In this document: one piece after another, positions 19,092 to 23,622 of the stretch
How positions within the stretch are numbered: the stretch's first letter is position 1
Layout of the letters: every line of letters starts with the position of its first letter
IMG/VR virus record: IMGVR_UViG_3300023116_000080
Span: 1-46,632 of that record
DNA: 46,632 nt
Source of the DNA: a virus
Reading direction: 5' to 3' (one strand)
Notes under the pieces: model-generated
What the model was told of the DNA's origin: nothing
The model's database searches: none
What the model saw: the letters and a program-made list of their open reading frames with translations, nothing else
Translations under genes and position numbers: made by a program

Positions 19092-20915
19092 TTAATTATT
19101 AACTGTAAGATCGTTTGTTACGGTCGTAACGTTTTGAGGTGGAAGTGGGGGTATATCACTGCCTCCACCTGATGCAGAACCATTTACAGTATTGGTATCT
19201 CCACCATTAAAGATATAGGTATCACCGGATTGAGTAATTGTTCCACCTTCTATGAGTCTTGAAACAATATCATTTACGGCTCCGCGTTCTGCATAGGCTT
19301 GAGTACCTATTCTGGTTTTTCCACTACCACTACCTCTAAAGAATCTACTGCGAATACCGAAGAGGCCGCGGCCTGCCATTTTTTCTAGTCTTCTGGCACT
19401 TAGATTTTCAATAGGTAAGAATCCATCATTTGGATCTTCATTTGCCACAACATTATAATCCATTATTTGTTTATAGCTATCCCATGTAGTATAATCATCA
19501 GGATCAAATCCAGGAGCCTTTTCTGGGAATCTAAAGAAATGTTTTTCTTGAGCCCATGTCTTTAATTCTTCTGTGGACATTTTCATTAGTAATTCACAAT
19601 AGACACCCCATTCGCCTTGAGGCATACCTTGGCCACCAGTGGTTTTTATCCAATCCTTCATACCTTTTTGAATTGCTAATAATACTGCTATAGCACCTTT
19701 ACCTCTATCAGCAGCAACTTTTTCCATATCAAAAGCAGCTTGAATCATAGGTGCATCAATAGAACCATCAGCTAAAGAGCTTGGAGCTATCATCATTTGT
19801 AGTGCGGCACCAGGCACTGACCCTGCAATTTTAAATGCAGCTGATATTGTCTTGCCAGGTATTGATACCCCACTCACAAGAGTTCTACCAATCATATTGT
19901 TGAGAGGGTTGTATTTTCCCTTTGTGATCGTTTGGGCTTTAGCTAATACATTTGCGGCTGTTTCTGCTGCAGCTTCAACTGGATTAAGAGCAGCCACAAA
20001 AGCTGTTGCCCCTACTCTGTTCCTTATCATCATACCATAATTTTTATATCTATTTCCTCTACCTCTTTCATCATTCATAGCGGTGAATCTACGGTTTGGA
20101 TCAATAGACTTGGTAGGATCTGCTACTAGTGGCTTAGTGGTAGTTGTATCTATTTTAACCGCGGATTTAGATGTGTCGGGAGGGGCTAACGCCTGTGCTT
20201 CTTTTCTAACAACCATTGCATCGGCACCACCTGTAAGTCTAGTAACTTTACCATTCTTTACACTGTAATTTTTTCCAGTAGCATCCCTAAAGGTATTTGT
20301 ACCAACATTTTTTTGGAGATCTAATTTTTTCCCCTGATAATCAACTGTTACTTTTGGAATTGGTTTTGGTAAAGTTGGTGTTACTTTTGTAACCGGCGAT
20401 GGTTGTTTAAGTGTAGGTGTAACCTTTGATACCTTAGGTGTTGTGTAAGGAACCTTGGTATTTTTTTTAATCTCTGAATTCTGAGATTGAATATCATTTA
20501 ATCTTTGATTAATTTTGGCAATACTTAAGGTAATGTTTTGATCTAATGGATTCAATACAGTTTCTACAGCTTCTTTGACCTCTGTCTTTTGTCTTGAATC
20601 CAATTTATCTACAAAAGCTTTTATTGCTGCAGCACCTGCTGCTAGGCCCAAAGCACCTTGAGCCAAAGCACCCATTGAGGGTCTGCTGGTTTCACCCGAA
20701 GATTTGTCTACTCTAGAACTTGCCTTCTGCGCCTGAAGTTTTTTATTCTGAGCCTCTAGTTGATCAAACTTATTTCTGTCTTGACTTTTTAAAAAGGCCG
20801 TAAAGTTTTTATTGAGTCCCTCAACACCATCACCGACACGATTAATGCCCTCAAGAGTATCGGCATTAAGTTTCTTTTGCTCTTCGAGCTTCTGGGCTAG
20901 GTTTGTTAAACTCAT
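19092..20915 (-). CDS. Putative tail tape measure or hub protein (gp29 position)
   Basis: A 607-residue protein, last gene of the leftward hub operon. The first 70 residues are coiled coil (LAQKLEEQKKLNADTLEG, KFDQLEAQNKKLQAQK). A short hydrophobic stretch (ALGLAAGAAAIKAFV) lies near residue 92; residues 150-200 are Pro/Lys/Thr-rich; two more Ala/Gly segments occur near 310-375; the C-terminus is Gly/Thr/Asn-rich. Direct position after a gp26/gp51 pair that looks like lambda G/GT, and a length close to T4 gp29 (590), suggest the ruler of tail length. Sequence alone does not prove it; a central hub protein is the alternative. AGGG lies 8 bases before ATG. Confidence 0.5.
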   Translation of the reverse strand: MSLTNLAQKLEEQKKLNADTLEGINRVGDGVEGLNKNFTAFLKSQDRNKFDQLEAQNKKLQAQKASSRVDKSSGETSRPSMGALAQGALGLAAGAAAIKAFVDKLDSRQKTEVKEAVETVLNPLDQNITLSIAKINQRLNDIQSQNSEIKKNTKVPYTTPKVSKVTPTLKQPSPVTKVTPTLPKPIPKVTVDYQGKKLDLQKNVGTNTFRDATGKNYSVKNGKVTRLTGGADAMVVRKEAQALAPPDTSKSAVKIDTTTTKPLVADPTKSIDPNRRFTAMNDERGRGNRYKNYGMMIRNRVGATAFVAALNPVEAAAETAANVLAKAQTITKGKYNPLNNMIGRTLVSGVSIPGKTISAAFKIAGSVPGAALQMMIAPSSLADGSIDAPMIQAAFDMEKVAADRGKGAIAVLLAIQKGMKDWIKTTGGQGMPQGEWGVYCELLMKMSTEELKTWAQEKHFFRFPEKAPGFDPDDYTTWDSYKQIMDYNVVANEDPNDGFLPIENLSARRLEKMAGRGLFGIRSRFFRGSGSGKTRIGTQAYAERGAVNDIVSRLIEGGTITQSGDTYIFNGGDTNTVNGSASGGGSDIPPLPPQNVTTVTNDLTVNN

Positions 20916-21047
20916 TTAAATACCCTGCGCAACCTTTCTTTCTTCGGCTATTCTTTTCATTTGCTCGATCAATAGATTTACATAAATTTCTCTCTCCCAT
21001 GGCATCATCGATTCTATGTCGCTGAGTGAATAGTTATGGTTCTCCAT
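20916..21047 (-). CDS. 51: gp51-like tail assembly chaperone segment (probably made by -1 frameshift)
   Basis: An open frame of 43 residues from its only ATG, MENHNYSLSDIESMMPWERE onward, ending at the base before the next gene's ATG. The Y-S-L-x-x-x-E-x-M-x-P-W-E-R-E-I-Y-V pattern is that of gp51-like hub assembly proteins of marine T4-like phages and of tail chaperone C-termini in general. No Shine-Dalgarno precedes the ATG at 21047. The frame stays open upstream to the T-run at 21103-21110, where a -1 slip from gp26 would enter it and add 62 residues (LIALSHDTLVNFYQ... first). It is thus more likely the tail of a gp26-gp51 fusion than a separate protein. Confidence 0.6.
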   Translation of the reverse strand: MENHNYSLSDIESMMPWEREIYVNLLIEQMKRIAEERKVAQGI

Positions 21048-21100
21048 TAATTGAAAATTCACTTGATAAAAATTCACTAGTGTGTCATGTGAGAGAGCTA

Positions 21101-21112
21101 TTAAAAAAAATC
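21101..21112 (-). other. Candidate -1 frameshift site at the end of gp26
   Basis: On the minus strand gp26 ends GAT TTT TTT TAA: eight T (21110-21103) give the slippery heptamer T TTT TTT immediately before the stop. A -1 slip re-reads one T and continues through TTA ATA GCT into the gp51-like frame. The layout matches the G/GT tail chaperone genes of long-tailed phages. Confidence 0.65.
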
Positions 21113-21811
21113 CTGTAATCCCTGTAATGTATATTTATTCTCTTTTTTACATTTTTCACAAGTAAATTCTGCATCATGTTTCAATGATGGTAGATTGTTT
21201 ACATATTCCAAAATCTTTTGATAGTGATCAGTAGAAAGACTATCCATAAATTGTTTAATTTCTTCTTCCGGTTCATCTTTAAATAAGAATGTATCATCTT
21301 CTGTATGAAGTGTTTGTAGGCACATCAAAGATAAGTTATAAAGAATCTCAGTATAGCTTTCACCTTCTAGGATCTTTTCTTTTTGAATTGCATCCTTATA
21401 TTTTGGAAATCCCATTACCAATTCAATATCATCATTTAATTTGATTTTTGGATTTGGAAATTCTTTTGATTCAATCTTAATAGTAGATACATCAATATCA
21501 ACTGAGTTGGGATGCTCACATTCACATCTCAGCAAGATAGTACTTGTCTCACCAACTGACTTTGATCTAATCTGTAAGAACATATATTCAACGTCAAATG
21601 TCGATAGATTATTAATGTCTATATCTTCTTCGATACATTGTTTTACTATATCAAGAATAGCCTGAGCTGCCATTAGACTATCATCAGATTCAAATGCCAT
21701 AAGCAATACTTTTTCTTCACCTACATTGTAGGGTCTAAAATGAATCTTTTGTTGGAGAGAAGGTAATACTGTATTAAATTTAGGATAATTGTTTAGTTTG
21801 GGTAGAGCCAT
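21101..21811 (-). CDS. 26: gp26-like baseplate hub / tail assembly protein
   Basis: A 236-residue protein of the T4_baseplate family (gp26). The opening ALPKLNNYPKFNTVLPS, KIHFRPYNVGEEKVLLMA near residue 22 and FDVEYMFLQIRSKSVGE near 72 follow the family pattern. Four Cys in two places (RCECEH near 100 and CEKCKKENKY near 220) could bind zinc. In T4, gp26 helps to build the central hub without being sure to stay in it. The C-terminus runs into the slip site, so a minor fraction would carry the gp51-like extension. T4 gp26 is 208 residues. Confidence 0.75.
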   Translation of the reverse strand: MALPKLNNYPKFNTVLPSLQQKIHFRPYNVGEEKVLLMAFESDDSLMAAQAILDIVKQCIEEDIDINNLSTFDVEYMFLQIRSKSVGETSTILLRCECEHPNSVDIDVSTIKIESKEFPNPKIKLNDDIELVMGFPKYKDAIQKEKILEGESYTEILYNLSLMCLQTLHTEDDTFLFKDEPEEEIKQFMDSLSTDHYQKILEYVNNLPSLKHDAEFTCEKCKKENKYTLQGLQDFF

Positions 21812-21827: not shown

Positions 21828-22538
21828 TTAAAAAATATTATTTACAAACCCTATAATGTTAGATCTAATTGTACTAGTCAAAGCATCTTTAAGATTTGAT
21901 GGAGATACGATAAATGGAGCTTTCCAGTCAGTAAAACTTAATTGAATATTTAATTCAACTATACCATCCATCTCATTGTTTAATTGTATTGCATTCATAG
22001 TTGTTGGGAATGCATCAATAAGTTTACATTTATAGATCACAAGATCGTTTAGTTGATCATTAAGACCCAAAATAGTTTCGCCAAGTTCAAAGTCAGAAAT
22101 TTTAGGAAGAACATTTCCTATACCACTTGAGAATTCCTGTCTATATCTTTGAGGTAGGCTCTTGACTTTTTTAAACTGTTCTATTTCAACATCTCTAGAA
22201 TAGTCTTTTTTGTAACCCACTTCATATGTATTTGTGTTTGTTGCAAGGTTTTGCCATGTTTCAAAATATTCCCTTACACCATAATCATTAAGAACATGGA
22301 ATGTCATAGACACATCTTGAATTAAAAATCCATTGGCAACACGCTCTTGTATTAAACCATAATTAAAAGTATTGGTAGTAATCTGCCTACCAGGTAATTG
22401 AACATCCCTACAAAGTATATTCATTTCCTCAGATCTAGCCCCAGGAAGGCTTGGAAGCTTTACGCGCCATAGGTTATTACGGGCAAGGCCACCTTTAGCA
22501 CTTACTAAACTTTTAAACTGATCAACTGTACCAGCCAT
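21828..22538 (-). CDS. Tail-tube-fold baseplate protein (gp54-like)
   Basis: A 236-residue protein with the layout of the gp19 tube fold: NNLWRVKLPSLPG near residue 21, CRDVQLPGRQITTNTFNYG near 43, FLIQDVSMTFHVLNDYGVREYFETW near 72 (in two parts) and a final FTDWKAP strand near 207. In T4-like phages such a protein beside gp48 and the hub is gp54, the platform from which the tube grows; gp54 of T4 is 320 residues. A tube protein of gp19 type is the alternative, but gp19 usually lies in the sheath region. Start overlaps the previous stop (TAATG). Confidence 0.55.
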   Translation of the reverse strand: MAGTVDQFKSLVSAKGGLARNNLWRVKLPSLPGARSEEMNILCRDVQLPGRQITTNTFNYGLIQERVANGFLIQDVSMTFHVLNDYGVREYFETWQNLATNTNTYEVGYKKDYSRDVEIEQFKKVKSLPQRYRQEFSSGIGNVLPKISDFELGETILGLNDQLNDLVIYKCKLIDAFPTTMNAIQLNNEMDGIVELNIQLSFTDWKAPFIVSPSNLKDALTSTIRSNIIGFVNNIF

Positions 22539-23130: not shown

Positions 23131-23622
23131 TTATCTACGTTTTTTCACTTTTAGGGGTTTTAAAGGTTTAAGAGTTCTTTTTGGTTTGGGCAGAATACCC
23201 ATTGAAGATAATTCTTTCTCTGTCCAAACCTGAAATCCCCAACCTCTATCAGCTGCATAGTTTTGAGCTGCAGCCCATTTATTCATATTCTTTATGTATG
23301 TCATTCCTTCAGAGATATACTTTTTTGTCTTGCGACCCTTGAACTCTGGTGGGGATGTTTCTTTCTCTGGTTTGATCTCAACTAAAAAAGTCTTGCCATC
23401 ACTGTAGGTAATTTTGAGATCCATGAAGTAACGATGATACTTTTTGTCGACTTCATAGAAGTAGGGTATAACAACCTCTTCTGATGACCAAGAACGTATT
23501 GACGAATTTTCATCACACCACTTAAAAGCATTTCTCTCCCATAAAGATCTAAATATTACATTATCTGGATCACCTTTATACTTGGTTCTGTTCTTTACCT
23601 TATATCTTCCAGAATATGCCAT
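23131..23622 (-). CDS. 4: gp4 head completion protein
   Basis: A 163-residue homologue of T4 gp4 (150 residues), needed for the last step of head filling before tail joining. YKGDPDNVIFRSLWERNAFK near residue 14, SSEEVVIPYFYEVDKKYHRY near 45, then FLVEIKPEKETSPP near 79 are typical. The E, D and E-x-K residues resemble the TnsA/PD-(D/E)XK nuclease fold, so the protein may trim DNA ends. The C-terminus is very basic (KPKRTLKPLKPLKVKKRR). It is the first gene of the leftward operon, divergent from gp48. Confidence 0.82.
   Translation of the reverse strand: MAYSGRYKVKNRTKYKGDPDNVIFRSLWERNAFKWCDENSSIRSWSSEEVVIPYFYEVDKKYHRYFMDLKITYSDGKTFLVEIKPEKETSPPEFKGRKTKKYISEGMTYIKNMNKWAAAQNYAADRGWGFQVWTEKELSSMGILPKPKRTLKPLKPLKVKKRR

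Follow-up and report, generated by a model that had tools for sequence, protein, structure and literature searches.

A very likely programmed -1 frameshift joining gp26 and a gp51-type segment in a T4-like viral genome

We describe here the junction between gp26 and a gp51-like segment in a viral genome of 46,632 nucleotides (nt), IMG/VR record IMGVR_UViG_3300023116_000080, positions 1 to 46,632; this whole stretch of DNA is referred to below as the window. A preliminary description of the window had proposed that the two are joined by a -1 frameshift, as in the G/GT genes of phage lambda. Comparison with related sequences indicates that a programmed -1 frameshift at this junction is very likely, and that gp26 probably serves as the short, and the gp26-51 fusion as the long, tail assembly chaperone (TAC) of the virus.

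The gp26-gp51 junction

The elements of the junction all lie on the minus strand, and are as follows (aa, amino acids).

21811..21101, minus strand: gp26, 236 aa, read in the zero frame, with its stop TAA at 21103..21101; probable short TAC (TAC-N, lambda gpG-like)
21119..21123, minus strand: AGGGA, weakly Shine-Dalgarno-like and 8 nt upstream of the heptamer, corresponding to a GGAGGG-type element seen across the family
21110..21104, minus strand: slippery heptamer T TTT TTT (pattern X XXY YYZ), identified from the sequence, in phase with gp26 and abutting the zero-frame stop
20916..21104, minus strand: -1 frame extension, an open frame of 62 codons plus stop, from TTA at 21104, carrying the gp51 domain
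21045..21047, minus strand: first ATG in the -1 frame, at codon 20; probably not a start codon

Read on the minus strand, the 3' end of gp26 is GAT TTT TTT TAA, with eight Ts at 21110..21103 that include the in-phase T TTT TTT, and from the slip the -1 frame stays open for 62 codons and contains the gp51-like frame, all as the preliminary description had stated. Its spacing between the gp26 stop and the gp51 ATG, given as 54 bases, needs to be corrected to 53. It had also described this ATG as lacking a Shine-Dalgarno sequence, and our inspection of the contexts found no Shine-Dalgarno-like sequence ahead of the ATG or of the two GTG codons that precede it. The product of a slip at the junction would be a gp26-51 protein of 236 + 62 = 298 aa (TAC-NC, lambda gpGT-like).

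The gp26 of the window belongs to PF12322 T4_baseplate (E 3.8e-50) and to the baseplate hub family phrog_150 (E 4e-55). In profile searches the -1 segment matches phrog_634, 'baseplate hub assembly catalyst' (E 2e-23), with no significant Pfam match. A further match (E 2e-8) is to the C-terminal end of the gp26 family, phrog_150, and this family thus seems to include fused members such as T4 gp51. A search of the junction against Rfam returned no match up to E 1. A junction stretch of 190 nt recurs unchanged in 8 other IMG/VR contigs, so that an assembly error in the T run is unlikely.

Conservation of the slippery site and of the -1 frame

We collected gp26 relatives in IMG/VR, relatives of T-even gp51, and named phage records, the IMG/VR relatives being the best 80 of 279, the best 80 of at least 597 and the best 80 of at least 595. 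The 270 loci profiled comprise 249 of frameshift type (including L080, the window itself), 11 that are fused, one that is both (L248), eight with gp26 and no gp51 match, and one without gp26 (L093, Lactococcus). Four of the eight end too early (L008, L032, L059 and L104) and four have diverged (L085, L095, L267 and L268). The weak Lactococcus match to the gp51 segment sits between replicase and excisionase genes and was taken as chance. Slip sites were counted at 249 junctions (L080 left out, L248 included). A set of 252 loci was formed from the 248 frameshift-type loci outside the window, the window, and the diverged L085, L095 and L267 (L268 not included); removal of 4 loci with an incomplete -1 frame, followed by dereplication at 80% identity, left 132 representatives.

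Wherever gp26-type and gp51-type matches overlap they stand in a -1 relation (253/253 pairs). An in-phase T TTT TTN is present in all 248 frameshift-type loci outside the window, so that the T run and the open -1 frame, whose conservation the preliminary description had asked about, are found throughout these relatives. With the window and the three diverged loci added, the site is present in 252/252, corresponding to 206 distinct 350-nt junctions. The lone junction without T6 among the 249 is L248, a T-even contig whose gp51 frame is split by an internal stop; the split is a mutation or a sequencing error. Among the representatives the heptamer is TTTTTTC in 93, TTTTTTT in 26, TTTTTTA in 10 and TTTTTTG in 3, the second codon of the site being TTC, TTT, TTA or TTG in the same numbers. 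The first Phe of the site is encoded by TTT in 132/132, as compared with 74% in gp26 bodies. The preceding codon, which encodes S, D, N, A or G, ends in T in 132/132, the figure for the same residues in gp26 bodies being 68%. As controls we took 476 other open reading frames (ORFs) of at least 130 aa from the representative loci. Three of them have an in-phase T6 in their last 20 codons, and 142 are followed by a -1 frame open for at least 50 codons past the stop, but none (0/476) has both features, so that the combination of site and open frame is beyond chance.

The part of the -1 frame ahead of the usual ATG varies as a gene does, with entropies of 1.08, 0.76 and 1.44 bits at codon positions 1, 2 and 3 across the 132 representatives, a pattern that shows protein-like selection. 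Four of its residues are nearly fixed (H in 119, L in 125, N in 125 and F in 123 of the 132).

T-even phages and other relatives

T4 gp51 is composed of a gp26-like domain (PF12322, E 3.9e-52) followed by the same C-terminal domain as the extension in the window, and it matches phrog_150 across nearly its whole length. The counterpart of the -1 frame ahead of the ATG is present inside it. Window and T4 gp26 are homologous, but T4 has two full genes, on opposite strands, and its gp26 has no slippery site. In the window, gp26 itself would provide what the gp26-like N-terminal part provides in T4 gp51. Among 12 T-even loci, none of the 11 complete gp26 3' ends has an in-phase T6 (the end of L242 is incomplete), and the -1 frame after T-even gp26 runs into other sequence, in T4 into the next gene, 25. 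A slippery site is thus retained in loci whose gp51 domain can come from the -1 extension alone, and is missing from those that have a full fusion gene. In a tree built from 51 chosen rows (35 of frameshift type and 16 domains from 8 T-even loci) the T-even gp26 and gp51 N-domains lie apart on long branches; its root is unresolved and the order of change is not settled.

When named records of more distant phages were examined singly, the heptamer was found in 9 of 11. In Cronobacter phage S13 (L087) and Aeromonas phage AsFcp_4 (L271) gp51 is unannotated, yet the extension is present in the -1 frame after gp26. According to the text available to us, a 2010 comparison of T4-like phages (PMC3037559) gives Aeromonas phage Aeh1 as lacking gp51, which may be the same annotation oversight.

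Candidate stimulatory elements

A scan for pairing with the anti-Shine-Dalgarno sequence gave one strong peak, formed by 9-mers starting 15-16 nt before the heptamer, with a mean duplex energy of -6.5 kcal/mol across the family as against -1.1 kcal/mol in control windows. Duplexes at or below -4 kcal/mol occur in 81% of the family and in 10% of control windows. Codon usage at this element is skewed in the same direction, the GAG:GAA ratio for Glu at -5 being 68:17 (68/85 GAG) as compared with 777:1999 (777/2776) in gp26 bodies (P 1.8e-22), and the real sequences pair better than their synonymous shuffles (mean -6.5 versus -4.8 kcal/mol).

Downstream of the site, a 50-nt segment that begins 5 nt past the heptamer is on average more stably folded than shuffled sequences, with a mean z of -1.64 and 39% of sequences below -2 (n=132), compared with a mean z of -0.04 and 8% below -2 for an upstream control. 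Among the sequences listed, the effect is clearest in those with a hairpin like that of phage P-SSM2. We examined this hairpin on 42 cyanophage-type representatives from a search ranked on P-SSM2 gp26; the structure was derived from P-SSM2, itself one of the 42, which favors it. Paired cells amount to 77.1%, versus 73.8% in shuffles (a level reached by 0/500), and 15 cells are changed on both sides, versus 6.7 in shuffles (0/500), whilst the covariation score is reached by 2/500. The hairpin is unexceptional in the number of pairs changed on both sides (197/500 shuffles) and in pair types (92/500). Versions with the partner strand slid reach at most 47.6% pairing; sliding by -2 gives 19 two-sided cells, above the 15 of the real hairpin, though only 32.3% of the cells pair in that version. 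RNAalifold found no consensus on the 42 sequences. A downstream hairpin is supported in a cyanophage subgroup only, and the window is without it.

In the clade of the window, a CTCTCNCAYGA-like stretch 9-19 nt downstream of the heptamer (21095..21085 in the window, minus strand) is almost fixed in its nucleotides, 8 of its 11 columns being invariant in 23 sequences, perhaps beyond what the amino acids LSHD require.

Predicted fold and gene context

An AlphaFold2 model of the window gp26 has a pLDDT (predicted local distance difference test score) of 93.5. In structure comparison its first ~95 residues align best with 3fgx (Z 8.0) and the HK97 TAC 2ob9 (Z 7.8 over 85 residues, root-mean-square deviation 3.9), the next row having Z 4.0. 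Among viral models, 65 matched the gp26 model with E no higher than 0.001, and those rows near the top that carry names are other baseplate hub proteins; a sequence search for solved relatives returned only weak matches to unrelated proteins. The predicted fold supports the chaperone identity but does not decide it, and the lambda G/GT analogy of the preliminary description gains some support from the predicted N-domain.

The genes on either side of the junction are also on the minus strand.

21828..22538, minus strand: tail-tube-like gene upstream of gp26, matching phrog_45 tail tube (E 7.8e-32)
19092..20915, minus strand: 607-aa ORF, candidate tape measure protein gene, beginning one base past the stop of the extension; placed as the tape measure by position only

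The preliminary description had placed a putative tape measure directly after the junction. An ORF does begin at the very next base (20915), but neither Pfam nor PHROG gave a match to it up to E 0.1, and its putative identity is based on its position. An ORF of at least 150 aa starts within 900 nt after the extension in 118 of the 132 representatives, and the other 14 have less than 600 nt of sequence left; of the 79 such ORFs that are complete, 77 are 426-826 aa long. By analogy, these ORFs occupy the place that the tape measure takes after G/GT. In 38 of the 118 the next large ORF lies 260-440 nt past the stop of the extension (pelagiphage and other loci, for example L083 3903-4235), and in HTVC008M the gap between the extension and the next large ORF holds a small ORF of unknown function.

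Elsewhere in the window, the head-closure (gp4-like) gene at 23131-23622 (minus strand) also matches a TnsA-like endonuclease N-terminal domain, PF08722 (E 1.4e-19).

Discussion

These observations suggest that gp26 and the 'gp51' segment would be one gene with two products. Most ribosomes would terminate at the TAA, giving gp26 as the short TAC, whilst a minority would slip by -1 on U UUU UUU and translate 62 further codons to make the 298-aa gp26-51, the long TAC. If lambda G/GT (PMC5009743) is a guide, the short protein would coat the tape measure protein in many copies, and a few copies of the long one would recruit tail-tube subunits through their C-terminal part. The frequency of the slip would then set the ratio of short to long protein.

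A number of points weigh against this interpretation. The survey is weighted to near relatives, and the heptamer statistics count related sequences as independent. Vibrio phage D509 (L272) and Klebsiella phage FKP14 (L275, Ackermannviridae) have an open -1 frame with no T6; their extensions are similar and carry a gp51-like MPW motif, and their gp26-like zero frames end TCA CTT TTC AAG TAA and GAG ATT TTC ATT TAA respectively. A different slip site, perhaps one like that of phage T7 gene 10, may be used by these two phages. Synonymous shuffles that pair with the anti-Shine-Dalgarno sequence as strongly as the real sequences average 30% across the family and 41% in the clade of the window. For the AGGGA of the window itself (duplex -4.4 kcal/mol) 25% of synonymous shuffles are equally strong, and the element is weak on its own. 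The downstream sequence of the window folds no better than shuffles (z 0.09), and RNAalifold gave no consensus structure in its clade of 23. With regard to the chaperone identity, Foldseek alone matches the gp26 model to the HK97 TAC weakly (E 1.2, prob 0.66), the fold match falls in the range for which the tool cautions that arrangements may simply be common ones, and a T-even gp51 model compared with the PDB had no HK97 TAC among the matches listed.

An alternative interpretation is that gp51 is a separate small protein, made from its own internal start or by re-initiation after the gp26 stop. The first 25 codons of the -1 frame do include an ATG in 117/132 representatives, and a separate small ORF is annotated in 13 of 19 frameshift-type phage records (6 list no such ORF and 0 a joined coding sequence). 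Within these codons a Shine-Dalgarno-like 4-mer lies upstream of an ATG in 3/132 loci and of any start codon in 6/132, and an overlapping stop-start at the gp26 stop is present in 6/132. Good ribosome sites at this ATG, which the preliminary description had named as evidence against a fusion, are thus rare, and with so few such starts re-initiation could apply to a minority of loci. The ATG is also not fixed (M in 89, I in 25, L in 6, V in 5 and K in 3 of the representatives, with other residues in the rest), whereas the T run is kept in 132/132, and the -1 reading ahead of the ATG shows conservation at the protein level and has its counterpart inside T4 gp51. These features weigh against an independent gp51, which we regard as very improbable.

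We assign an equally low probability to transcriptional slippage, in which RNA polymerase rather than the ribosome slips on the T run. This would suit the window and 15/23 of its clade, where the run has 8 Ts, but 106/132 representatives have only 6 Ts with a variable seventh base, a pattern that fits codon re-pairing, and the Shine-Dalgarno-like element and the cyanophage hairpin fit translation better. Marginally less probable still is that no fusion is made and that the open -1 frame is the remnant of an ancestral fused gene. Whilst an in-frame fusion does exist in the T-even phages, a remnant sits poorly with a heptamer and -1 frame kept in 248/248 loci, with gene-like variation before the ATG and with the absence of both features together from all 476 control ORFs. 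A ribosomal -1 frameshift joining gp26 and gp51, as the preliminary description had suggested, is supported instead by 248/248 slip sites with an open frame and by the rarity of Shine-Dalgarno sequences at the gp51 ATG.

Given a programmed -1 frameshift, a broader account of the family can be outlined, for and against which we consider the balance to be even. Outside the T-even phages the junction would be a modular frameshift cassette, consisting of an internal Shine-Dalgarno-like element that synonymous codon choice maintains, a strictly conserved U UUU UUN and, in a single lineage of cyanophages, a hairpin with covariation. The T-even phages would have replaced this cassette by gene duplication and then lost the site, and the marine 'short gp51' would be an annotation artefact.

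The lambda gpG/gpGT frameshift has counterparts in P2, HK97 and mycobacteriophages. The predicted N-domain of the window gp26 resembles the HK97 TAC, but by profile the window proteins belong to other families (PF12322 and phrog_634), the slippery site is poly-U, and the product is predicted here from the sequence. In Escherichia coli dnaX, a -1 frameshift is directed by an internal Shine-Dalgarno-like stimulator, a slippery run and a downstream hairpin. The slippery run has a likeness here, as do the candidate Shine-Dalgarno-like stimulator, weak in the window, and, in some cyanophages, the hairpin, but dnaX is a host gene with another heptamer, and the window has no hairpin. Chaperone genes of T4-like phages were reportedly identified by Vladimirov et al. 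2022, known here through citing papers, and are apparently the same genes as the gp26/gp51 of the window. Judging from the available text of those papers, poly-T slip sites occur in TAC-N genes of T4-like phages (PMC12846349, citing Vladimirov 2022), and some T4-like phages have a short gene and a longer fusion gene instead of frameshifting (PMC10885494). Thus, whilst the preliminary description knew of no slip described for T4-like gp26/gp51, frameshifting in this gene family is, from what these sources contain, probably already in print. The TAC frameshift of Vandenendeviridae and Andersonviridae (phage Adele) appears from the same text to follow the same strategy with a poly-T type site, but in other phage families and with the motif GTTTTT (PMC12846349). 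The open-access literature, as far as its accessible text extends, yielded no report of the Shine-Dalgarno-like element, the cyanophage hairpin or the absence of the site in T-even phages, and these details of the stimulators and of the T-even contrast may be additions to a known frameshift.

According to the accessible text of a 2016 review (PMC5009743), conservation of the lambda-type G-T frameshift is wide in phages with long tails, 'except T4', and according to that of the 2010 comparison cyanophage gp51 is ~20% of the length of other T4-like gp51, with cyanophage and marine vibriophage gp51 lacking the first ~200 residues (PMC3037559). Recognition of gp51 as a -1 extension of gp26 would fit both statements as they appear there. 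On the broader account outlined above, the 'T4 exception' would be an exception of the T-even phages only. Cultured cyanophages would offer a means of testing how the two products are balanced.
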